Assembly (NCBI RefSeq): GCF_900169365.1
Contig: NZ_FXZH01000011.1
Span: forward strand, 62,001 to 126,000
Direction of reading: 5' to 3'
DNA length: 64,000 bases
From: Brevibacterium sp. 239c
GTDB lineage: Bacteria; Actinomycetota; Actinomycetes; Actinomycetales; Brevibacteriaceae
Below are positions 4,233 to 41,211 of the stretch, in pieces. The translations under genes were made by a program, and so were the position numbers. The notes below the pieces were generated by a model. The model saw nothing but the letters and a program-made list of their open reading frames with translations. It searched no databases and had not been told where the DNA came from. How positions within the stretch are numbered: position 1 is the first letter of the stretch; every line of letters begins with the position of its first letter.

Positions 4233-4615
4233 AGTTTGTCCAATCCTAAATTCACTGCTTCGACTTCCTCTGGGGTTCCGAGGAGTTCGACACGGTACAG
4301 CACGGGTACATTGCATTTTGCGGCCACCTTGTGTGCCGCGCGACAGTATTCTTCGCCGAAACTCGTATTTCCAGCGCCGACGACGCCGACGAGATGGCGT
4401 CGATTCGATTCGATATTGAGGAACTTGATCACTTGCTTGGGAACGGCACCTCTGTTGGCACCGGCACCGTAGGTGGGAGTCACGAGGACGAACGGTTCGT
4501 CGATCGTCAGCGTCTCTTCTTTCGTCAGGAGGGGAAGCCGGCGCGAGGGGTGCCTCAGCTTACTGACGAAGCGGTCGGTGTACTCAGAGCTGCTCGAGTA
4601 GTAGACCAGGAGCAT
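4202..4615 (-). CDS. nrdI: Flavodoxin-like NrdI
   Basis: Small flavoprotein (137 aa) that supplies the oxidant for assembling the Mn2-tyrosyl radical cofactor of NrdF. The flavodoxin-like features are [15 protein letters not shown] at the N-terminus (FMN phosphate loop), VTPTYGAG, and [14 protein letters not shown] near residue 85. The ATG at 4615 lies one base after the nrdH stop and the gene overlaps nrdE, so nrdH-nrdI-nrdE form one tight transcript. A longer open frame upstream is shadow sequence inside nrdH. Confidence 0.93.
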
Positions 4616-4616
4616 G

Positions 4617-4865
4617 TCAGGCCACGACGGAAACCGAGGTCTGCTCGCCGGCCAGAGTGGCGATCTTGTCCGGGCGGAAACCTGACCAGTGGTCGTTGTC
4701 GGTGACAACGACGGGAGCCTGCATGTAGCCCATGGCCTTGACGACATCCAAGGCGTTCTCATCGACACTGAGATCGACCGATTTGTACTTCAGCCCTTTG
4801 GCATCAAGCGCACGGTACGTGGCGTTGCACTGGACGCAAGCTGGCTTGGTGTACACGGTGATCAT
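4617..4865 (-). CDS. nrdH: Glutaredoxin-like electron donor NrdH
   Basis: An 82-aa redoxin that reduces the NrdE C-terminal disulphide, drawing electrons from thioredoxin reductase. The redox motif is CVQC at residues 10-13, and WSGFRPDKI near the C-terminus is the NrdH signature. GAGGAG lies about 5 nt before the ATG. It is the first gene of the nrdHIE transcript. Confidence 0.95.
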   Translation of the reverse strand: MITVYTKPACVQCNATYRALDAKGLKYKSVDLSVDENALDVVKAMGYMQAPVVVTDNDHWSGFRPDKIATLAGEQTSVSVVA

Positions 4866-10620: not shown

Positions 10621-11730
10621 ATGAACTCTCCGGACAACTCAGCTGGCAGCACTTCGACCCCGCGACTGCGGGCCTCGCTGGAGACATTCCCGCCGTATGT
10701 TCCGGGGAAGGCTCCCAAGCGAATCGACGGACTCGTCCCGTTCAAGCTCTCCTCGAACGAGAACTACCTTCAGCCGCTGCCAGCGGTCACCGACGCCATG
10801 GTCACTCACGCGCAAAACCCTGCTCTGTACCCCGATGATGGCGCACTGCGTCTGCGCACGGAACTGGCCGACCGTCTCGGAGTCAGCATCGATGAACTCG
10901 TTGTGACCACCGGCGCCAGCGAACTACTCGTGGCACTGACCCAGATCACTTCTGACTCCACCACAGAAGCGATCTATCCCTGGCCGTCATTTGAAATGTA
11001 TCCCCAGACCACCGGGCTGGCCGGATCGAAACGGATCGAAGTGCCGGTGCGCACCGACGGTCGACACGACCTCGACGCCATGGCAGCGGCGATCACCGAT
11101 CGGACCAGCCTCATCATTCTCTGCTCCCCGAACAATCCGACGGGACCGGCTCTTCGCGACGACGAGGTCCGTCAGTTCCTCACCCAGGTGCCCGAGCATG
11201 TGCTCGTCGCCCTCGACGAGGCCTATTGGGAGTTCGCTACCGCCGAGGGAGTCGTCAACGGCGTTGACCTTGTGGCCGATTTCCCCAATGTCGTCCTGGT
11301 CAGGACGTTCTCCAAGGCTCACGCGCTGGCTGGATTGCGGGTCGGATACGGCCTCGCTCATAAAGCTGTGATCCAAGGGCTGCTGAAAGCGGTCATTCCC
11401 TTCGGAGTCACCGACATGAGTCAGGCTGCTGCACTGGAGTCGCTGCGTCACAGCGATGAGGTCGACGTTCGTGCTAAGGAGATCGCGGCTGTTCGCGACG
11501 ACTTCGCACACGCGCTGCGCGAGCAGGGCTGGGACGTTCCTGAGGCGCAGGGCAATTTTGTGTGGCTGCCGCTGGGGCCGCTGTCCTCAACCTTTGAAGA
11601 TGCCTGCGTGGAGCAGGCTGTTGCGGTGCGCAACCTCGGCGATGGGGTGCGAATCAGCATTGGGGAACGGGAAGGACTCGACCGGGTGCTCGCAGTCGCC
11701 TCCGCTTTCTACGCCGAGCATTTCAGCTGA
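10621..11730 (+). CDS. HisC/Pat-type PLP aminotransferase
   Basis: A class I/II fold aminotransferase of 369 aa, either histidinol-phosphate aminotransferase or the aromatic amino acid transaminase Pat of Actinobacteria. Visible motifs are LSSNENYLQP near residue 42, TTGASELL, SPNNPTGPA, DEAYWEF, and the PLP lysine K232 in TFSKAHALAGLRVGYG. No his genes are adjacent, which favours the Pat role (transamination of phenylpyruvate or 4-hydroxyphenylpyruvate), but this is inference. GAGG precedes the ATG. It follows the MoxR operon by 23 bp and may be cotranscribed. Confidence 0.88.
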   Translation: MNSPDNSAGSTSTPRLRASLETFPPYVPGKAPKRIDGLVPFKLSSNENYLQPLPAVTDAMVTHAQNPALYPDDGALRLRTELADRLGVSIDELVVTTGASELLVALTQITSDSTTEAIYPWPSFEMYPQTTGLAGSKRIEVPVRTDGRHDLDAMAAAITDRTSLIILCSPNNPTGPALRDDEVRQFLTQVPEHVLVALDEAYWEFATAEGVVNGVDLVADFPNVVLVRTFSKAHALAGLRVGYGLAHKAVIQGLLKAVIPFGVTDMSQAAALESLRHSDEVDVRAKEIAAVRDDFAHALREQGWDVPEAQGNFVWLPLGPLSSTFEDACVEQAVAVRNLGDGVRISIGEREGLDRVLAVASAFYAEHFS

Positions 11731-11846
11731 GTAGCTTGGGTCGGCTGAGCACCTTGAGTTGGCTGGTCAGCTGAGTGAGGCGAGCTGAATCGGCTGTGCT
11801 GGTTTGCCCTGGTCCCCGAAAAATGGGCCGGGGTAGCTTATGCTTC

Positions 11847-13400
11847 TCAGAGTTCTGCGAGCTCAAGGGCCAGGGCCACGGCCTGGACCGATTCTGCCCG
11901 TGTGAGGTCGCGGCCCAACAGTGTCTCGATCTTCGCCATTCGTGCACGCACCGTGTGCCGGTGGATGCCGAGCTCGGCCGCGACCGCATCTCGCACTCCC
12001 CCAGCAGCGATGAAGGAACGCAGCGTCAGCAGCAGGTCCTGCTCGTCGCGCGAAGCCAGGAGCGTGCCCAGGACTCGGTCGACGAACCTCTGCGCCGCTG
12101 ACCCATCGATCGACGACAGCAGAGCACGCACATCCGAGTTCGCGCTTTCGTGCTGCGTCCGCCACACGGTCCATGTGTGGTGGACTTTTGTCAACGGGAT
12201 CATCTTCGCAAACAGCCGATCCAGTCCGGTGACGTCCGCAACCCGGTCGACCGCGCTAGTCTCATCGACCGCGTTGACGTCCTGGACTGTGCGAACCTCA
12301 TCGACCGCACTCCTTTGACCGGCTGCACCCACCTCATCGACTGCACTCTCAAATTCGGCGGCGGGTTCGCCAGCATCCAAATGGCTGAGATCCGCGTTCC
12401 GAGTGCTGGCTTCGATGACGCCGAGCATCGCACCAGCACGAACCAGAAGCGTCCCGGCACCCAGGTCCCCCATCAGCGTCTCTGGAACCTCACCGCGCAC
12501 GTTGCCGAAGACGCTGAGCTTCACACGCGCGACCGGAGCCAGACCAGTCTGCTCAACCCACTCGGCGCGGGCCTCTCCAGCCGCCAAGGGAGTGGTGAAT
12601 AGCTGAGACTCCGATCGCCGAGGCGACACCTCAGTGATGCTCAGACTCAGCAATGCAGCTGCAGTGGAGAGCAACAGGGTGCGGGTACGGGAATTGCCGG
12701 CCACCTCGGCGGGGGCAAGGATCCACCCCCGCACCTGCTCGTCTCCGACCGGAACGGCCTCGACGATTCCCGCCTCGGTGCGCAGAAGACGTGGTGCCAT
12801 GGAGGGTTTGAGAGACTCCGCAATCAGCTCATGACGCACCAGATTCTCTGCATCGGTTCCGGTCAGCCCCCTTCCTGTGGGTGAGACGAATCGAACGTCC
12901 GTGCCCAGAGTGCTGGCCAGATCAGCGACGAGCGCGGCAGGGCCTTGGTGAGCGAGGTCGGTGGCGAATCGACGTCCGGCGTTGCTGGCCCGCGTGAGCT
13001 CTCGAGTCGTCTCCTCCTCACGCATCCGGGTGAAGGCATCGACGACGGCGACGAAGGGGACAGGCTCTGGGACCCCGAAGAGTGGAAGACCCTGAGCCCT
13101 GGCGTGCTCGATCAGCACCGGTGGGATCTCCTGCCACGGCAAGGCGGAGCCAAGACCGATGCCAAGTGCATGGACGCCCACACGTTTGAGACGAGTGACA
13201 TAGTCGCCCACGCCGTCACCGCCGAGGTCTTGGCCGACACCGATCGTGAGCAGGACCTCTCCCCCGGCCAACCATTCGTCGACCGCGGGCAGCTCCGAGG
13301 AGTGCACGATCGTGACGTCATCTGATCGGGCGCTCGGCGAATCGACGACGACGTCGAGCGCGAGTTCTTGACGTGCCCAGAGCTGACCCAAAGTGACCAT
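11847..13400 (-). CDS. PucR-family transcriptional regulator with a repeat-bearing insert
   Basis: A 517-aa regulator divergent from the guanidino-catabolic operon and probably its regulator. The N-terminal PucR sensing domain begins MVTLGQLWARQELALDVVV and includes SSELPAVDEWLAGGEVLLTIG; the C-terminus carries the PucR-type helix-turn-helix (GGVRDAVAAELGIHRHTVRARMAKIE, about residues 470-495). The ATG at 13400 is chosen because it fits the PucR N-terminus and a TAGTAT -10-like hexamer lies 7 nt upstream, so the mRNA may be leaderless; the open frame extends to 13475. Between the central and HTH parts is an insert with four copies of (S/N)AVD(E/R), absent from ordinary relatives as far as I recall. 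Confidence 0.85.
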   Translation of the reverse strand: MVTLGQLWARQELALDVVVDSPSARSDDVTIVHSSELPAVDEWLAGGEVLLTIGVGQDLGGDGVGDYVTRLKRVGVHALGIGLGSALPWQEIPPVLIEHARAQGLPLFGVPEPVPFVAVVDAFTRMREEETTRELTRASNAGRRFATDLAHQGPAALVADLASTLGTDVRFVSPTGRGLTGTDAENLVRHELIAESLKPSMAPRLLRTEAGIVEAVPVGDEQVRGWILAPAEVAGNSRTRTLLLSTAAALLSLSITEVSPRRSESQLFTTPLAAGEARAEWVEQTGLAPVARVKLSVFGNVRGEVPETLMGDLGAGTLLVRAGAMLGVIEASTRNADLSHLDAGEPAAEFESAVDEVGAAGQRSAVDEVRTVQDVNAVDETSAVDRVADVTGLDRLFAKMIPLTKVHHTWTVWRTQHESANSDVRALLSSIDGSAAQRFVDRVLGTLLASRDEQDLLLTLRSFIAAGGVRDAVAAELGIHRHTVRARMAKIETLLGRDLTRAESVQAVALALELAEL

Positions 13401-13411
13401 GAAATCCATAC

Positions 13412-13456
13412 TATCCGCGGTGGATACTCGATTCACCAATTCATCCATGATGGATA
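13412..13456. promoter_or_regulatory. Two 15-bp palindromic operators (TATCC-N5-GGATA)
   Basis: TATCCGCGGTGGATA at 13412-13426 and CATCCATGATGGATA at 13442-13456 share the same half-sites and lie 30 bp apart start to start, on the same helix face. They occupy the presumed promoter of the pucR gene and are about 140-180 bp upstream of the divergent ureohydrolase. The likely ligand is the adjacent PucR protein; binding itself is inferred. Confidence 0.6.
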
Positions 13457-13530
13457 TCGGTGTTGTGTGAGCCACGTCCTAGGCTGATGGCAATCACAAA
13501 CCACTGAGAATAACCATGCACTGCCGATTG

Positions 13531-13577
13531 CAGTCAGTCACTACAGAGCGCAGTCAGTCACTACAGAGCGCAGTCAC
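13531..13577 (+). repeat. Tandem 20-bp repeat in the ureohydrolase leader
   Basis: CAGTCAGTCACTACAGAGCG occurs twice in direct succession (13531-13550, 13551-13570) followed by CAGTCAC, ending 18 bp before the ATG. It lies in the 5' leader between the operators and the ribosome-binding site. It may be a recent slippage duplication or alter leader length; no protein is encoded. Confidence 0.8.
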
Positions 13578-13595
13578 GATTTCGAAGGAGAGCCA

Positions 13596-14606
13596 ATGTC
13601 GACTCAACCCCTAGGGCCAGCCGATTACAGCCAGACACCACGCTTCGCGGGACCACCGACCTTCGGTCTGCTGCCGCGCATCGACGAGGTCGAAGCGCAG
13701 CGGCCGGGCGAGAAGATCGATGTCAAGATCCTCGGCGTCCCCTTCGATGCCGGTGTCAGCTACCGTCCGGGTGCCCGTTTCGGTCCCGCTCACATCCGTC
13801 AGTCCTCGAAGCTGCTGCGCCCCTACAACCAGGCCACGAACGTCCACCCATTCACCTGGCAACAGGTTGCCGACTGCGGTGACTTGGGTGTCAATCCCTT
13901 CGACATCGAAGAGGCCATCACCGAAGTCGAACGCACCTCCGATGAGATGCGCGCCGATGGAGCGAAGCTGCTCACCCTTGGCGGCGACCACACCCTGGCC
14001 CTGCCGAACCTGCGTTCCCTGCACAAGACACACGGCAAGATCGCGGTCCTGCACTTCGACGCACACCTCGACACGTGGGACACCTACTTCGGTGCTCCCT
14101 ACACGCACGGGACTCCGTTCCGCCGCGCCAGCGAAGAAGGCCTGCTCGACCTCGAATCCTGCATGCATGTGGGCATCCGCGGACCTCTCTACGGCAAAAA
14201 GGACCTGGAGGACGATGCGGTGCTCGGCTTCCAGATCATCCGCAGCGACGACTATCAGTTCACATCTGTCCAGGAAGTCGTGGCCCGGATCCGCAAACGC
14301 CTCGGCGATGCACCTGTCTACCTGTCCGTCGACATCGATGTCCTCGACCCTGCTGCTGCGCCGGGCACCGGAACCCCTGAGGCCGGGGGCATGACGAGCC
14401 GTGAATTGCTCAACTCGATTCGCGGGCTGCAAGGGCTCAATGTCGTCGGTGCCGAGATCGTCGAAGTGGCACCTGCCTACGACCATGCCGAAATCACCGG
14501 GCTCGCTGCGGCCCACGTCGGCTACGAAATGCTCTCCCTGTGGGCTGCCGAGGCCAATGGTCTCACCGGCCCCACGGGTCCCAGCGGCGAAGCCCTCGGA
14601 GTCTGA
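13596..14606 (+). CDS. Ureohydrolase: agmatinase or guanidinobutyrase
   Basis: A 336-aa Mn2+ enzyme of the arginase/agmatinase family that hydrolyses a guanidino group to urea plus an amine. The binuclear metal motifs are GGDHT (about residues 128-132), DAHLDTWD (about 155-162) and SVDIDVLDP (about 243-251), and the family signature includes [14 protein letters not shown] precedes the ATG. Agmatine, 4-guanidinobutyrate and related substrates cannot be told apart by eye; the ThDP decarboxylase next door would suit 4-guanidinobutyrate from the 2-ketoarginine route. Confidence 0.88.
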
Positions 14607-33215: not shown

Positions 33216-33431
33216 GTGGAAGCCACCGAGGTCATCAAGAGCGAAGTGCACAAGAGGATCAGGGACCTCGATGTGGACCCTCGCACCGATATGCAGCGCT
33301 CTCGCGAGGTCATTCGCACGGTCATCTCCGAGTATGACGAGCGCAGTCTGGTCGCGGATCTTCCGCCGATAGAAGATAAGGAGGCGACGATCCGATCGCT
33401 CGACAATCAACCCTCCGGATTCGGCATGTAG
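33216..33431 (+). pseudogene. CpaF/TadA secretion ATPase, N-terminal stub
   Basis: A 71-codon frame starting at GTG behind AGGGG, whose product (IKSEVHKRIRDLDVDP, REVIRTVISEYDERSL, ADLPPIEDKE, ending QPSGFGM) matches the N-terminal helical domain of actinobacterial CpaF/TadA pilus-assembly ATPases up to the GFGPL-like motif, where it stops. The entire ATPase domain is absent. It is a remnant of a tad locus, or its start was carried here during island formation. Confidence 0.6.
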
Positions 33432-33528: not shown

Positions 33529-34779
33529 ATGTCTGAAACTGAACCAGTTGTATGGTCGTTCTTCTCAGGAGCGATGGGCCTCGACCTGGGATTGGAAGCT
33601 GAGGGGTGGCGTCCCTCATTGGCCGTGGAGATGGAACCTAAATTCTGCGCGACTATTCGAAATAACCGTCCAGACATCCAAGTAGTCGAATCTGATGTCG
33701 CTGACCTAACTGGCGCAGGGCTCAAAAAACTGTGTGACGTGAATGAAGTGGACGTAATGGTAGGTGGTCCTCCTTGCCAGAGCTTCTCTACCGGTGGAAA
33801 TCGTGCCGCTTTGAACGACCCTCGAGGCAACGCCATATTCGAGTACTTACGACTAATAGCAGAGACACAACCACGCCTTTTCGTGCTTGAGAATGTGGCA
33901 AACCTCGTTACTGCTGCCGCACGTCACCGTCCGATCGCTGCGCGCCCGGGAAATTCCTGGAACCTGTCGTCATACAGTGCGAGTCAATCAGCACTATTCG
34001 ATATTGACAGCGAGTTTCCGCCTCTCGAACCTGACGAGCTATCCGGGAGCGCAATTCGATACCTGTTGGACACCGTCATAGCGGATCTCGGCTATCAGGT
34101 CCGCTTCGCGGTTTTAGACTCAGCCAACTATGGGGCACCGCAGAAGCGCCTACGGTTCGTGATGGTCGGTTCTCGCGATGGAGTCCCTCCGGAATTCATA
34201 CAACCTACGCATGGAACCGGGGAACGCCCGCTAGTGACAGTAGCGGATGCTATTAGTGATCTTGAGAAAAACCCGGGTCCTGGAGCCCTCTATACGGAGA
34301 TTACGCGAGGCTATTTCGATCTCGTCCCAGAGGGGGGCAACTGGCGCAACTTGCCTCACGAAGTCGCGGCCCTTGCAATGGGAGAACGGAGTCTTCGTGC
34401 CGGCGGGGGAAAGACAGGCTTCTTTCGTCGGCTCAGTTGGGACGGGCAGTCCCCGACAATCACCGGCAAAGCTAACCGCAAAGGATCTGCCATGTGTCAT
34501 CCATCGGAAAGCCGACCGCTGTCGGTACATGAGTGCGCCAGACTGCAAGGCTTCCCAGATTCGTGGAAAATCAATGGGTCCATCGCCGATCAATACACGC
34601 AAATCGGGAACGCTGTACCAGTTGCGCTCGGAAAAGCCATCGGCGCAACCATCAAACAGCCCGTAGTCAGGGGGGCACAACCGGACATTGACACAATGCT
34701 CACTGACGCAATCGAACTACTGCGAATGTCCGCAACAAACAAACGGCGACGCAGCGCCAAAGAAGTCATTACCAAATGA
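33529..34779 (+). CDS. DNA (cytosine-5) methyltransferase
   Basis: A 416-aa C5 methyltransferase protecting host DNA in a type II restriction-modification pair. Ordered motifs: I VWSFFSGAMGLDLG (SAM), IV GGPPCQSFS with catalytic C83, VI ENVANL, VIII QKRLRFVMVG, X QIGNAVPVALGKA. The target-recognition region lies about residues 230-330, and the recognised site cannot be predicted by eye. The gene overlaps the endonuclease gene by 4 bp (ATGA). Codon and base composition are more AT-rich than the flanks, indicating acquisition by transfer. Confidence 0.93.
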   Translation: MSETEPVVWSFFSGAMGLDLGLEAEGWRPSLAVEMEPKFCATIRNNRPDIQVVESDVADLTGAGLKKLCDVNEVDVMVGGPPCQSFSTGGNRAALNDPRGNAIFEYLRLIAETQPRLFVLENVANLVTAAARHRPIAARPGNSWNLSSYSASQSALFDIDSEFPPLEPDELSGSAIRYLLDTVIADLGYQVRFAVLDSANYGAPQKRLRFVMVGSRDGVPPEFIQPTHGTGERPLVTVADAISDLEKNPGPGALYTEITRGYFDLVPEGGNWRNLPHEVAALAMGERSLRAGGGKTGFFRRLSWDGQSPTITGKANRKGSAMCHPSESRPLSVHECARLQGFPDSWKINGSIADQYTQIGNAVPVALGKAIGATIKQPVVRGAQPDIDTMLTDAIELLRMSATNKRRRSAKEVITK

Positions 34780-35921
34780 CCTACCGCGACCGTCTCTCCG
34801 GACTGAACCCACGTGTCCTCACCCGAATCGACGAAACTCAACTCGAAGTCGATTGGATCCGTTCAGCAACGGCACAACAACTCCTAGATCTCGCGACTGA
34901 TCAACTTGGCCTCAAGCCCCTCACGAACGTTGCGTTACCGCATCAGACCGCGCTTGAGCTCGGAAATCTGACTCGCGCCGAGCTATTCAACCTCCTAGAG
35001 CCACATTTCGACTCAGGTACCTCCACTGCAAAGGATCTCGCTGATCAAGTCCAGCTGTGCCGCGCGTTCGCAAACCCGAGGCAGGTTACACGCGAGGTAG
35101 CCAACTACGTTGAGGCCCAGGTGCAGAAGTTCCCGACCAAGGCTGACCATCTGCGCGTGGGCAGCAATGCAGGCGACGTGCTTGATCCATTCATACTTGC
35201 TGCAAACTTCGAATTACTCAGTGAACAAAGTCTCCAACAGACGATCGAACATACGGCATCTCACAAAGTACTTATGAAGATCGAAGATCTAGTTGGTCAT
35301 CTCCACGAGAACGTGATTGGTGAGATGCGCGGTAATTTCCGCGTCCCCGAGCCTCAGGGCAAAGGCGGGAAAGAGAAAATGGACCCGCTTTTCAATCCCT
35401 TCCCAGGTGCGGACGTGGGTCAAGTTCCGCTATCTGAGAAACAAGCTGCGCTCCGTCTATTTCAGGTCAAAAGCAAAACTGGATCTGCGAAAGGCGGTGA
35501 TGGGAAGCGCTTAGGCGACCAACTAATCGCACTCGAGGAAAGCTATTTCGCTGATACTTACTATGTCGCGATAGTCGGAAACACTCTTCGAGGGCACCGG
35601 TCACGTGGGGCAGTAGCAAAAGCCTCGCCTCGCACTGCCATTCTTGTCGGGTCGTCTGCTCTAAATGAACTGACACAATCAGCAGTGGGTGCAGAACTTC
35701 TCCTGCGCGTATACCAGCGGGCATTCCGGACAGCATCCGAGGAGACGGGGTACCGGTTCTCGGAACTTGCTGTAAATATGGCCGCTGATTTTGAAGAACG
35801 AGCGAATCTGCATGGTACAGATTTCTTGTCCGCCTGGCTGCACGATGCCGTCGATGGACCCTCAGAAGAACAGGACTCACGTCGGCAATCCAAGAAAACT
35901 CGCAGGCACAAACTAGAGTAG
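34776..35921 (+). CDS. Probable type II restriction endonuclease of unknown family
   Basis: A 381-aa protein translationally coupled to the methyltransferase, hence the expected restriction partner. I do not recognise a named family. The N-terminal 150 residues are mostly helical and may bind DNA. A PD-(D/E)xK-like core is suggested by NPFPGADVGQVP followed by LRLFQVKSKTGSAKGGDGKRLGDQL (about residues 205-250), with QVK in place of the usual ExK, then a conserved-looking hydrophobic strand YYVAIVGNTLRGH. The tail is charged. The gene lies in the low-GC island. Active-site assignment is inference. Confidence 0.6.
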   Translation: MTYRDRLSGLNPRVLTRIDETQLEVDWIRSATAQQLLDLATDQLGLKPLTNVALPHQTALELGNLTRAELFNLLEPHFDSGTSTAKDLADQVQLCRAFANPRQVTREVANYVEAQVQKFPTKADHLRVGSNAGDVLDPFILAANFELLSEQSLQQTIEHTASHKVLMKIEDLVGHLHENVIGEMRGNFRVPEPQGKGGKEKMDPLFNPFPGADVGQVPLSEKQAALRLFQVKSKTGSAKGGDGKRLGDQLIALEESYFADTYYVAIVGNTLRGHRSRGAVAKASPRTAILVGSSALNELTQSAVGAELLLRVYQRAFRTASEETGYRFSELAVNMAADFEERANLHGTDFLSAWLHDAVDGPSEEQDSRRQSKKTRRHKLE

Positions 35922-36152: not shown

Positions 36153-36569
36153 TCAAAGACACAAACTGCTCGTGTTGCTATCCACGTCGTCTGTCAAAAA
36201 TACCGGTCTAACTTGAGTTGCACCCAGACGAATAGCAAGCTCAATCTTGAAGTCAATTGCCACATTGCCCGCGACATAACCAGCTACAAGCAAAACATGC
36301 AACCCATCAAGCCGGGCAGAAGTATCAACCGTTTTGAGGTCTGAGTCTAAGCTAAGTGCCGCTCCGATAATGCGCTCCCCAGTTCGATCAACCGCCAGAA
36401 GATACCACTCGCCTCGTTGCGACTGATCAACAACATGTTGCGCCACAGCACTGAGCGAGGGCCCGGCGAGTGCACTGTTTTTTGTCTGCGCTCGATAGAC
36501 CTGGCTAAGCAAACTCAACGAATTGGCCACGCTTACAGTATTGCGTGAAACCTGCAATAGCGGAACCAC
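36153..36569 (-). CDS. Unknown 138-aa protein of the kinase trio
   Basis: A minus-strand frame directly downstream of the 159-aa gene. The product contains ALAGPSLSAVAQHVVDQSQRGEWYLLAVD, then RIIGAALSLDSDL, LDGLHVLLVAGYVAGNVAID and RPVFLTDDVDSN; the hydrophobic strand plus small-residue loops faintly recall a phosphoribosyltransferase-like Rossmann fold, which is only a guess. The GTG start has no clear ribosome-binding site. The frame is continuous with that of the preceding gene except for its TAG stop, 11 codons upstream of the GTG. No transmembrane segment is obvious. Confidence 0.5.
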   Translation of the reverse strand: MVPLLQVSRNTVSVANSLSLLSQVYRAQTKNSALAGPSLSAVAQHVVDQSQRGEWYLLAVDRTGERIIGAALSLDSDLKTVDTSARLDGLHVLLVAGYVAGNVAIDFKIELAIRLGATQVRPVFLTDDVDSNTSSLCL

Positions 36570-36599
36570 CCAAGCCTGTGTGTTGCGGCAAAACAGATA

Positions 36600-37079
36600 C
36601 TAACGGTTGGCAACGAGCCCAGAAAGTGCCGCGGCAGTTGCTTCGCTGAACTTGCCACCTTTAATCTCGCTTGCGACCCTATCAAGATCAGCTTTATTGG
36701 TACCGTAATCCGACCCGCACTCTCTGCCGTTGCGGATCGTAGTACCGGCTACCAGCTGCTGGGCCGAACTCGTCAGGGCCCCCTCCATGAGCAGACGCAT
36801 ACGGGGACCTTCTGTGTTTGTTGGGCGAGCGGGTCGGTCGGCTCGCCGCACTGTGACGACATCTGGCTTCAGTCCTCGCAGACGACCAGAAAAGTTCTTG
36901 GCACAATCACCAAGCATGTTCGCCATCTCGTCCACGCCACTATTGATTTCAAACGTGGCCTCAACTCGTACATTTGAGACGTCAAGAGCCACGTCTCGAT
37001 CTCCGTCATCATTTAAAACCACGACGGTCGTATCTAACCGATTCTTCTTGACCTTCACTGCAAGTCCCATAGCGCGCAT
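36600..37079 (-). CDS. Unknown 159-aa protein divergent from the kinase
   Basis: A small acidic/basic mixed protein with the run GLKPDVVTVRRADRPAR, GPRMRLLMEGALTSSA, and NKADLDRVASEIKGG. The alternation of strands (LDTTVVVLNDDG, VVTVRRA) with a central Glu and a late Asp resembles the RNase H/RuvC fold used by resolvases, but the catalytic residues are not certain. It begins at ATG 37079 (or 37070) only 26 bp from the divergent kinase gene; CATAAT at 37091-37086 is a -10 element placed so the transcript would begin at the ATG. Confidence 0.6.
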   Translation of the reverse strand: MRAMGLAVKVKKNRLDTTVVVLNDDGDRDVALDVSNVRVEATFEINSGVDEMANMLGDCAKNFSGRLRGLKPDVVTVRRADRPARPTNTEGPRMRLLMEGALTSSAQQLVAGTTIRNGRECGSDYGTNKADLDRVASEIKGGKFSEATAAALSGLVANR

Positions 37080-37085
37080 ACTTCA

Positions 37086-37099
37086 ATTATGCCTACTAT
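37086..37099. promoter_or_regulatory. Overlapping divergent -10 elements giving leaderless transcripts
   Basis: In the 26-bp gap between the 159-aa gene and the kinase, CATAAT (minus strand, 37091-37086) and TACTAT (plus strand, 37094-37099) each end 6 nt before the respective ATG. With normal spacing the transcription start would be the A of both start codons. The two promoters therefore nearly abut and cannot easily be occupied together. Confidence 0.5.
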
Positions 37100-37105
37100 A
37101 GTCAG

Positions 37106-38140
37106 ATGACGCACCCCAGTCCCCCTGCAATCATCGCCGAAAGATACGAAGTACTCCGAAAAATTGGCGAGGGCAGTTTTGGCGAAGTATACGAAGTATA
37201 CGACCATAATATGCGACAGACGAGCGCATTGAAATTGTTGAAACGAACCTCAAAAAACATCTGGGAGGAAGCCCAGATTTTGCAATCGGTCGCCGGAGAA
37301 CATGTGCTTCAGGTACGTAATGCCGATCTTGTCTTGGGGCAACCTTACATTGTGACTGCGGTCGCGACACATGGCACGATCGCGGAGCAGATAACACCAA
37401 ACGTCGGAGTTCGCGTCGAGAAAGCTGTTCGGTGGGGACGGCAGTCCTGCCAGGGTGTCGCACGCTTGCATGATCTTGGCCTCTTGCACAGAGACCTAAA
37501 GCCGGAAAACATCTTCTTAGATGATCGAGGTGATGCGCTCATAGGCGACCTGGGGCTTTCCCAACTGCAAAACTCAGGCGGCTATGCAGAGGCTGGTGGC
37601 AGTCCGCCCACCATGGCACCAGAAGTAGCCGCCGGGTTCACAAATAATACCCGGGAGTGCTACACAGCACGCAGCGACGTATTCAGTCTTGGTGCTAGCT
37701 TGTATTGGATGTTAGCAGGTAGCCCGGCACTACCGTCCATGTCAGTTCAGGCAATAGCATTCACTCACGTACCAGACATTTGGAACCCTGCACCACATTT
37801 GCCTAAGGCACTACGGGATCTCGTCAACAGAGCTGTCCACTTCGACGCTTCCCAGCGCCCTTCTTCACCAGCAAATTTGGATGCTTCGCTTGCTAGTCTC
37901 AAAAGGATGAAGCGAGCGTGGAACCGGATCCCTCCACACTCCGGTCATCAAGACTGCTTTGAAGGCGAAAAATCCGGCTCCACTTCAGTTTCTGTCTGTG
38001 TTTCCGATATCGCTGGTGGTGCAAGCTCTGTGATTGACGTGCATCACCGAACATCAGGGCGCAAGCTGAAGGAACATTGTCGCCAAGTACCTTCAAGCGA
38101 AATTGGCCCCAAATTGCGTTCCATCTTCAGGAATGTTTGA
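37106..38140 (+). CDS. Soluble Ser/Thr protein kinase with a Cys/His C-terminal module
   Basis: A 344-aa Hanks-type kinase: G-loop IGEGSFGEVY, K43 (ALKLL), HRDLKPEN with catalytic D130, DLG (D148) in place of DFG, and MAPEV. The catalytic residues are all present, so it should be active. There is no transmembrane segment or PASTA domain, unlike PknA/PknB. The last 70 residues hold a spaced His/Cys pattern (PHSGHQDC, then HHRTSGRKLKEHC) that could bind zinc. Genes of this build inside R-M islands are good defence candidates, but the partner role is unproven. Confidence 0.85.
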   Translation: MTHPSPPAIIAERYEVLRKIGEGSFGEVYEVYDHNMRQTSALKLLKRTSKNIWEEAQILQSVAGEHVLQVRNADLVLGQPYIVTAVATHGTIAEQITPNVGVRVEKAVRWGRQSCQGVARLHDLGLLHRDLKPENIFLDDRGDALIGDLGLSQLQNSGGYAEAGGSPPTMAPEVAAGFTNNTRECYTARSDVFSLGASLYWMLAGSPALPSMSVQAIAFTHVPDIWNPAPHLPKALRDLVNRAVHFDASQRPSSPANLDASLASLKRMKRAWNRIPPHSGHQDCFEGEKSGSTSVSVCVSDIAGGASSVIDVHHRTSGRKLKEHCRQVPSSEIGPKLRSIFRNV

Positions 38141-38402: not shown

Positions 38403-38595
38403 TCACTTGAACTCTGTCCACACCTCAAGTTGAGTGGCTGTCCGCAGGATGTCCCAGAGTGTCTCGTAACGGTAGAGTTCGTTCGCCTGTCCCGCTTCCA
38501 CGAGGCGGTCAGCCAGTGCAGAAATCACTGGCATGCCACTTGTGACTTCGAGGACGACGTCTGCGTTGACGGAGAGTCGGGCCAGAACGTCGCCA
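38403..38595 (-). pseudogene. Duplicated C-terminal fragment of the GNAT gene
   Basis: The minus strand encodes DVLARLSVNADVVLEVTSGM...ALADRLVEAGQANELYRYETL before running into new sequence and TGA at 38403. This is nearly the same as the end of the GNAT gene at 40210-41211. The closest DNA match is about 135 bp (38457-38590 against 40231-40364). The copy has no start and marks the right edge of the island, just beyond the permease gene. The gap 38141-38402 shows no gene. Confidence 0.8.
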
Positions 38596-40209: not shown

Positions 40210-41211
40210 TCAGCGAGCGTCGGTGGGAGGTCTCGTGAGAGTTTCGTAGCGGTAGAGTTCGGTGGCCTGTCCCGCTTCGACGAGTCGGTCGGCCAGAGCG
40301 GAAACCACTGGCATGCCACTCGTGACTTCGAGGACGACGTCGGCATCGACGGAGAGTCGGGCGAGGAGGAGTTCGGCATCGGCGACCGCTGCCTTGAACA
40401 GCTCACTCGTGGTGTCGGCAGCTTCCTCGCGAGTTTCGAACATCGACCCGATGATGAGCTCGGTGGGTGCCTCTTCGTCATCACCTGGTGCCGGCATCGC
40501 GTCCGTGATCTCGGCGCCTGACTGGTCGGCTTCGCGGGCGTAGGAGACGGCGAAAGCGCTCAGTCCTGCGTCCTCGGCAGCTCCAGCGTCACCGTTGAGC
40601 AATGCCGCACCATGGGCGCCGACTGCTTCGGAGAGGAACGCATTGTTGACCTGACCGATCGTCAGAGGACCGACAGCATCGTCCTTGTTCACAGCCGTGT
40701 ACCAGGCGAGGAACGCCTTCGTCAGCTTCACCGAACCAGTGGCCACGATCTCGAGATCCTCGGCACGTCCGCCACCGCTGGGAGGCAGAGCGCCGGCGGC
40801 AACCTTGATCACCCGTGTCGTCGTCAGAGGCGTGAAGCCGAGTGCCTGCGCGAATCCGGCGCCCGGGCTGCCGGCCTGCACACGTGTGCGCAGGTCAAGT
40901 CCTTCCAGCGCGGTGCCCACGGTCTCGGCACAGACGGCTTCGAAGAGTTCCCGTCCCTGACCATGGCCCTGTTCTTCGCTCGCGACCTCAACATGGACCC
41001 ATGCCCGATGGGGGTGCAGCGGGGACTCCGCAATCGCGGCGGCACCGACGGGAACCTCAGCGACCACCTCGGCGATGACGGACCGCAGCAGGGGCGAATC
41101 CGAGGATGGACGGAACAGGGACCTGGCCATATGAGCGGCCGGCGTATCGGCGTCGGCGAACACCTCGTTCAACCGCAGGTCGTCACCTTCGGTCAGGTCT
41201 CTGATCGGCAT
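40210..41211 (-). CDS. GNAT acetyltransferase-like protein
   Basis: A 333-aa protein with an acetyl-CoA-binding loop of GNAT type (VEVASEEQGHGQGRELFEAV, about residues 75-95) and a second, weaker half with AFLAWYTAVNK and RLSVDADVVLEVTSGMPVVSALADRLVEAG, suggesting a tandem GNAT with one degenerate copy. The acetylated substrate is unknown. GGAG stands 8 nt before the ATG at 41211. It diverges from the nucleoside phosphorylase gene across 46 bp. Confidence 0.75.
   Translation of the reverse strand: MPIRDLTEGDDLRLNEVFADADTPAAHMARSLFRPSSDSPLLRSVIAEVVAEVPVGAAAIAESPLHPHRAWVHVEVASEEQGHGQGRELFEAVCAETVGTALEGLDLRTRVQAGSPGAGFAQALGFTPLTTTRVIKVAAGALPPSGGGRAEDLEIVATGSVKLTKAFLAWYTAVNKDDAVGPLTIGQVNNAFLSEAVGAHGAALLNGDAGAAEDAGLSAFAVSYAREADQSGAEITDAMPAPGDDEEAPTELIIGSMFETREEAADTTSELFKAAVADAELLLARLSVDADVVLEVTSGMPVVSALADRLVEAGQATELYRYETLTRPPTDAR

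Follow-up and report, generated by a model that had tools for sequence, protein, structure and literature searches.

A soluble Ser/Thr kinase and two predicted pseudoenzymes form a mobile gene unit of Actinobacteria with a possible role in genetic conflict

Results

The locus in Brevibacterium sp. 239c

The window that we analyzed is a stretch of 64,000 nucleotides from Brevibacterium sp. 239c (contig NZ_FXZH01000011.1, positions 62,001 to 126,000 of the forward strand), and coordinates without a locus name refer to it. Loci in other genomes are given by L numbers. The window contains a gene for a Ser/Thr kinase, which we call K, and two smaller genes, B and C (Table 1). A preliminary description of this DNA had named these three open reading frames, and all of them are present where it placed them, with the start codons of K (37106, plus strand) and B (37079, minus strand) 26 bp apart. 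It had also placed them in a low-GC island. This agrees with the base composition (~53% GC in the island versus ~63% around it), and a comparison with related genomes sets the limits of the island.

Table 1. Features of the K-B-C locus and its surroundings in the window.
Feature	Position	Strand	Evidence
K: soluble Hanks-type Ser/Thr kinase, 344 aa	37106-38140	+	Pkinase PF00069, E=1e-38
K C-terminal tail, H278-x2-H281-x2-C284-x13-C298, candidate zinc-binding module	37889-38137	+	12/12 conservation
B: 159-aa RuvC-fold protein without catalytic carboxylates (putative pseudo-resolvase)	36600-37079	-	AlphaFold2, Foldseek, alignment
C: 138-aa phosphoribosyltransferase-like protein, degenerate PRPP loop VLLVAGYVAGN	36153-36569	-	AlphaFold2, Foldseek, profile
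Shared divergent start region of K and B, 26 bp	37080-37105	.	Sequence
-10-like TACTAT, 6 nt before K	37094-37099	+	Sequence; promoter role inferred
-10-like CATAAT, 6 nt before B	37086-37091	-	Sequence; promoter role inferred
Acquired low-GC island: restriction-type genes and K-B-C	~33425 to ~38605	.	Comparison with relatives, GC content
C5-cytosine DNA methyltransferase (context, outside the K-B-C unit)	33529-34779	+	PF00145, E=1.5e-59; PADLOC MTase_II, 1.5e-91
381-aa protein (context, outside the K-B-C unit); overlaps the methyltransferase stop	34776-35921	+	Presumed restriction enzyme, by position only
tadA remnant, 71 codons, left island edge	33216-33431	+	Aligned to intact 407-aa TadA of relatives

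The two genes beside the trio had been described as a restriction-modification pair, and this was only half verified. The C5 methyltransferase is clear. Its 381-aa partner has no significant match in Pfam, NCBIfam, PADLOC, or the PDB; given its position, it is a candidate for an uncharacterized cognate restriction enzyme.

Where this genome has the island, five relatives (L055-L059) keep a tad pilus operon. Judging by eye, the replaced tad/Flp operon spans from tadA, whose first codons remain at the left edge, to a gene for an FtsK/EssC-like protein of 1.2 kaa. Losing a surface pilus while gaining restriction genes may itself matter for phage sensitivity. At the right edge, a segment of ~146 bp (38440-38585) resembles the 3' end of a GNAT gene near 40210, beyond a permease gene. 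This similarity suggests that the island entered by recombination from a strain that lacks the permease.

The three genes form one genetic unit

In a search of 60 genomes from the family, we found one further B, and there too the arrangement is a kinase, a divergent B, and then C. The unit is thus patchy within the family (2/60 genomes). Wider searches, against an order-level set and ~85,000 species genomes, added loci from Rhodococcus, Arthrobacter (two), Pedococcus, Oerskovia, Occultella, Actinoplanes, an Acidimicrobiales MAG, and Brevibacterium renqingii, as well as fragment loci at contig ends in Mycobacterium, Gordonia, and Tsukamurella. Altogether, the complete loci number 12 and represent nine or more genera of Actinobacteria; K is divergent from B in all of them. 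We disregarded a match to B in G309 (E=4.5e-4), which is a reading frame that overlaps a ROK-type gene.

Of 396 genomes of the order, six matched a profile built from only the tail of the kinase. The profile of C identified the same six (four at 1e-45 or better, and two weaker hits that correspond to subtype II, described below), and B adjoins K in each. Elsewhere in the order, the profile of C gave weak matches in 31 more genomes (E from 1e-7 to 1e-3), which we take to be ordinary phosphoribosyltransferases (PRTases).

The three proteins have diverged in parallel: across the 12 loci, their distance matrices are congruent (Mantel r of 0.89 for K-B, 0.93 for K-C, and 0.81 for B-C; permutation p=2e-4). 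The preliminary description had supposed that the three genes are one unit and had proposed that their co-occurrence in other actinobacterial genomes be checked. Co-occurrence, fixed geometry, and congruent divergence all bear this out: K-B-C is a real genetic unit that is scattered across the Actinobacteria.

K is an apparently active kinase with a distinctive tail

K had been read as a Hanks-type kinase that is apparently active and has no membrane segment, and its sequence agrees with both points. Lys43, Glu55, His128, Asp130, Lys132, Asn135, Asp148, and Glu173 are invariant among the 12 homologs; these include the VAIK-type lysine, the HRD-type aspartate, the asparagine, the aspartate at the DFG position, and the glutamate of the APE motif. 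The arginine of HRD is variable. No 19-residue window exceeds 1.33 on the Kyte-Doolittle scale, so K has no membrane segment.

The His/Cys-rich tail that had been noticed in K is conserved as well. Besides the two histidines and two cysteines (Table 1), W272 is kept in 11/12 homologs. The H-x2-H-x2-C...C arrangement makes the tail a candidate zinc site. This module appears to be confined to K's family of kinases, as all of the order genomes that matched the tail profile encode B and C too, and a sequence search of the PDB with the tail found no relative.

Among the PADLOC models, the best match to K is mad6 (4.4e-51), followed by PD-T4-6 (8.6e-39) and PglW (6.6e-22). The match to mad6 covers the kinase domain only.

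B has a RuvC-like fold but not the catalytic residues

No family could be named for B or C from their sequences, and the databases gave the same answer: neither protein has a match in Pfam, NCBIfam, or PADLOC (at E ≤ 1), or a convincing one in PHROGs. Their folds (RuvC/RNase H for B and PRTase for C) were foretold from sequence before any structures were predicted. We then built AlphaFold2 models of both proteins from 11 homologs.

The model of B has a pLDDT of 91 and a pTM of 0.87. When it was compared to the PDB with Foldseek, RuvC was the top hit (7xhj, E=1.2e-7, TM 0.66), which supports a RuvC fold. In RuvC, the catalytic residues are an aspartate on strand 1, a glutamate on strand 4, and a C-terminal pair of aspartates. 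We aligned B with RuvC from the same and related genomes and found Ala7 where RuvC has its catalytic Asp7, and Arg78 where it has the catalytic glutamate. (The profile alignment of B with RuvC is weak, so the assignment of these residues leans on the common fold and the order of the elements.) Among the 12 homologs, the first catalytic position is never aspartate (it is A, T, C, S, G, or a gap), the second is arginine or lysine, and the last aspartate is mostly alanine.

So, the preliminary guess that this protein is RNase H-like holds for the fold, but the suggestion that it might be a nuclease effector does not: the catalytic positions are replaced in every homolog, and we rejected B as an active nuclease. 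B shares its fold and the order of its elements with the Holliday junction resolvase RuvC, but the catalytic carboxylates are gone, and to judge from its sequence B is no resolvase.

C resembles phosphoribosyltransferases with a degenerate PRPP loop

The model of C is somewhat less confident (pLDDT 84.5, pTM 0.74). PRTases are its top hits from Foldseek, with probabilities of 0.9-1.0 and E-values of about 0.01, which are weak on their own. A PRTase fold is also indicated by the sequence profile of C, which matches a PRTase from Legionella (5esx, E=4.3e-5). This match spans the PRPP loop, where VLVVDDILDGG of the Legionella protein aligns with VLLVAGAIAGE. The PRPP loop of a type I phosphoribosyltransferase has an acidic pair and TGxT, and C does not have this combination. 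In subtype I, the loop is VLLVAGxxAG and the acidic pair is absent. In subtype II, a single aspartate is kept, along with ASGT. Because one aspartate and SGT of the loop are retained, C of subtype II may still bind a ligand or have activity.

Subtypes, a fourth gene, and the divergent starts

The loci can be divided into two subtypes. In subtype I, which includes the window, K and B are divergent and C follows B on B's strand. In subtype II, C is convergent with B; this subtype comprises L018 from Actinoplanes and L052 and L053 from another family of the order. B and C overlap at their ends in L052, in L053 and, to a marginal degree, in L018.

At some loci, B and C are separated by a fourth gene, which has the opposite orientation and encodes a protein of 147-157 aa with an N-terminal helix-turn-helix (HTH). 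Loci with this gene are those of Rhodococcus, Pedococcus, and the Acidimicrobiales MAG, as well as the three fragments; most loci, including the window, are without it. The HTH protein resembles excisionase/MerR-type domains (PHROG excisionase, 7e-5 to 9e-6), and it has a weak similarity, below the cut-off, to Rv2175c_wHTH. The HTH protein of L007 is also weakly similar to mad1 (3.4e-5).

The spacing between the start codons of K and B is 26-27 bp in all eight of the subtype I loci that we compared (L017, where the start of B is ambiguous, was left out, and the nearest GTG was taken as the start of K in L011, L013, and L014). In subtype II, the spacing is 17-23 bp. Starts that nearly overlap suggest that dosage is coupled. 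In the same eight subtype I loci, there are -10-like hexamers 5-7 nt before both starts. The hexamer before K fits TANNNT in 7/8 loci, and the hexamer before B is CATAAT-like. TANNNT is the -10 element of leaderless actinobacterial promoters (PMC3898074), and the start region probably consists of back-to-back promoters of the leaderless type. In M. tuberculosis, leaderless mRNAs are reported to predominate among toxin-antitoxin systems (PMC8485053).

K-B-C is usually found in mobile DNA

Five of the K-B-C loci adjoin a tRNA-Leu(CAG) and one adjoins a tRNA-Met. Tyrosine integrases are found near three of the loci; there is none near the copy in the window. The three fragment loci encode identical proteins even though they come from three genera, which we interpret as recent movement between genera.

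These fragments (L008-L010, from Mycobacterium, Gordonia, and Tsukamurella) lie at contig ends, beside tRNA-Leu and fhaA, and consist of an identical truncated B, an IS481 transposase, the HTH gene, and C. All three copies are broken near the same point of B. More generally, the tRNA-Leu(CAG) upstream of fhaA-pstP-rodA-pbpA is a recurrent integration site in several actinobacterial genera, for K-B-C and for other accessory genes (L015, 19425-19508; L012, 15786-15869; L008-L010, near 4430-4635). At L012, the region 11602-14539 encodes a protein of 540 aa in which a nucleotide-kinase-like part is joined to an adenylosuccinate-synthetase-like part, as well as a MazG-like and a DarT-like protein (all identified by eye), and is reminiscent of nucleotide-modification genes.

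Searches with B and C found no copy among the plasmids of PLSDB, the phages of INPHARED, or IMG/VR, so a phage-borne role is without support.

Defense genes near K-B-C

Several loci have neighbors of defense type. These are the type II methyltransferase in the window, a type I restriction enzyme and specificity subunit (L053), AbiU (L007), PDC-S06 (L015), PDC-S32 (L011), a Tmn-like YobI NTPase (L013), and a NACHT-HEAT protein near L052. We examined 125 flanking genes with PADLOC at E ≤ 1e-25, which is an arbitrary cut-off. All of these neighbors except for the NACHT-HEAT protein pass it, and so does a WYL regulator. As a small control, we applied this cut-off to nine randomly chosen regions of these genomes (126 genes), which gave mad3 (two), SspA/DndA, mad8, and PolA. 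The control matches are mostly housekeeping look-alikes. The difference between flanks and control is one of kind, in a small sample. Half of the K-B-C loci lack a strong PADLOC neighbor. Within the limits of this control, defense or mobile islands are a recurrent location for K-B-C.

Comparison with known systems

The preliminary description knew of no system with this composition, and neither the family libraries nor the open-access literature that we searched contains one. Several known systems share parts with K-B-C. We considered MADS (methylation-associated defense system) because K's best PADLOC match is its kinase, MAD6, and the HTH protein of L007 is weakly similar to its HTH protein, MAD1. 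However, K scores only 112.4 bits against the MAD6 cut-off of 460, and there are no mad companions beside it: B and C match no PADLOC model, the best model for the methyltransferase is MTase_II, and the 381-aa gene is unmatched. Also, we know of no RuvC-fold or PRTase-fold partner that has been described for MADS. K does not belong to BREX/Pgl either, as it scores 73.9 bits against the PglW cut-off of 990 and has only 344 aa, whereas PglW is large. The stand-alone defense kinases PD-T4-6 and Stk2, as well as PglW, are, like K, soluble Hanks kinases in a defense context, but the similarity is that of kinase domains in general, and as modeled these systems lack the H/C tail, B, and C.

KKP (kinase-kinase-phosphatase) is another Ser/Thr kinase module on mobile DNA. 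It is reported to consist of two kinases, PfkA and PfkB, with a phosphatase, and to act in phage defense (PMC11341870). In the window, there is no second kinase and no PP2C-type phosphatase beside the trio, so K-B-C is not a KKP system.

The nearest analog for the pairing of a recombination-type protein with a PRTase is the DprA-PRTase anti-phage system, in which a phosphoribosyltransferase is combined with a DNA-binding protein that originates from recombination/transformation (PMC9122126). But DprA is not RuvC, that system has no kinase, and in K-B-C the PRTase loop is degenerate. Finally, the pair of PknL and Rv2175c provides an actinobacterial Ser/Thr kinase with a winged-HTH substrate that resembles the optional HTH protein (PMC4601284). 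That pair is thought to act on cell-envelope functions, though, and it has no B or C, while the window has no HTH gene.

Discussion

K-B-C is usually in mobile DNA and is often beside anti-virus genes, so it is probably a defense system or a toxin-like switch. Our best explanation, which we hold with moderate confidence, is that K-B-C spreads horizontally as a conflict module, for which an anti-phage or toxin-antitoxin-like role is the most likely. The kinase would be the effector and the two pseudoenzymes the sensors. As only K has an intact active site, it is likely to be the effector or the signal. It is the mobile and defense-island context that points to an anti-phage role.

How might such a module work? 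By descent from RuvC, B could bind a nucleic-acid structure, such as branched or junction DNA, and by descent from PRTases, C could bind a nucleotide or a phosphoribosyl metabolite, if the predicted folds are a guide. We speculate that B and C, along with the HTH protein where it is present, either restrain K or signal when it should fire. Infection would alter the structure of DNA or the nucleotide pools and so release K, which would phosphorylate proteins of the cell or of the phage and stop growth or phage production. The abutting promoters might couple the level of K to the levels of B and C, an arrangement that would suit a dangerous effector and the proteins that control it.

A more specific form of this idea is that K-B-C is an immune system not described before, whose cytosolic kinase is under the control of both a dead Holliday junction resolvase, which would perceive an infection-specific DNA structure, and a dead phosphoribosyltransferase, which would perceive nucleotide pools. 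We propose this only tentatively.

K-B-C could instead be a strict toxin-antitoxin system: K would be a toxin that arrests growth, B and C would act as its antitoxins or regulators and ensure that the genome retains the island, and there would be no dedicated sensor of phage. The intact active site in K alone, the tight coupling of the divergent starts, and the patchy, mobile distribution would all fit. There are precedents as well, namely the toxin-antitoxin-like DS-6, where a HipA-related kinase has a partner other than HipB (PMC13092281), and the PfkA/PfkB kinases and phosphatase of KKP (PMC11341870). But an antitoxin would not require two conserved pseudoenzymes with unrelated enzyme folds, and defense genes are frequent neighbors, so we consider a strict toxin-antitoxin system rather unlikely.

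The similarity of the HTH protein to excisionases and, weakly, to Rv2175c, which is a substrate of PknL (PMC4601284), raises another possibility: K might sense a signal and, by phosphorylating the HTH protein (alternatively B or C), control the excision, transfer, or gene expression of the island. The integrases near three loci are consistent with this. Yet most loci, including the window, lack the HTH gene, and the copy in the window has no integrase nearby, which makes regulation of the island an unlikely role.

It seems improbable that K-B-C has nothing to do with conflict and instead serves cellular signaling in nucleotide or phosphoribosyl metabolism. C is PRTase-like, and the adenylosuccinate-synthetase-like gene near L012 might be taken as a hint of such a role, but K-B-C is rare and patchy (6/396 genomes), it moves horizontally, and its neighbors differ at nearly every locus. 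Very little can be said for B as a nuclease effector that is switched on by phosphorylation, since its RuvC fold comes with replacements at Asp7 and the glutamate position in all of the aligned homologs. That K, B, and C are mere chance neighbors is already refuted by their co-occurrence with fixed geometry in 12 loci.

We regard the gene system K-B-C as new: two of the three protein families are undescribed, and none of the libraries that we searched contains their combination. Viewed as just another kinase-based defense, it would be a variation on a known type. If our favored explanation of K-B-C as a conflict module is correct, then the Actinobacteria gain a defense or conflict system with a kinase effector, along with two protein families (B and C) that are absent from all of the family libraries we used. 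It would also mean that two pseudoenzymes, one derived from a junction resolvase and the other from an enzyme of the nucleotide-salvage type, have been jointly reused as the sensors or controllers of a kinase.
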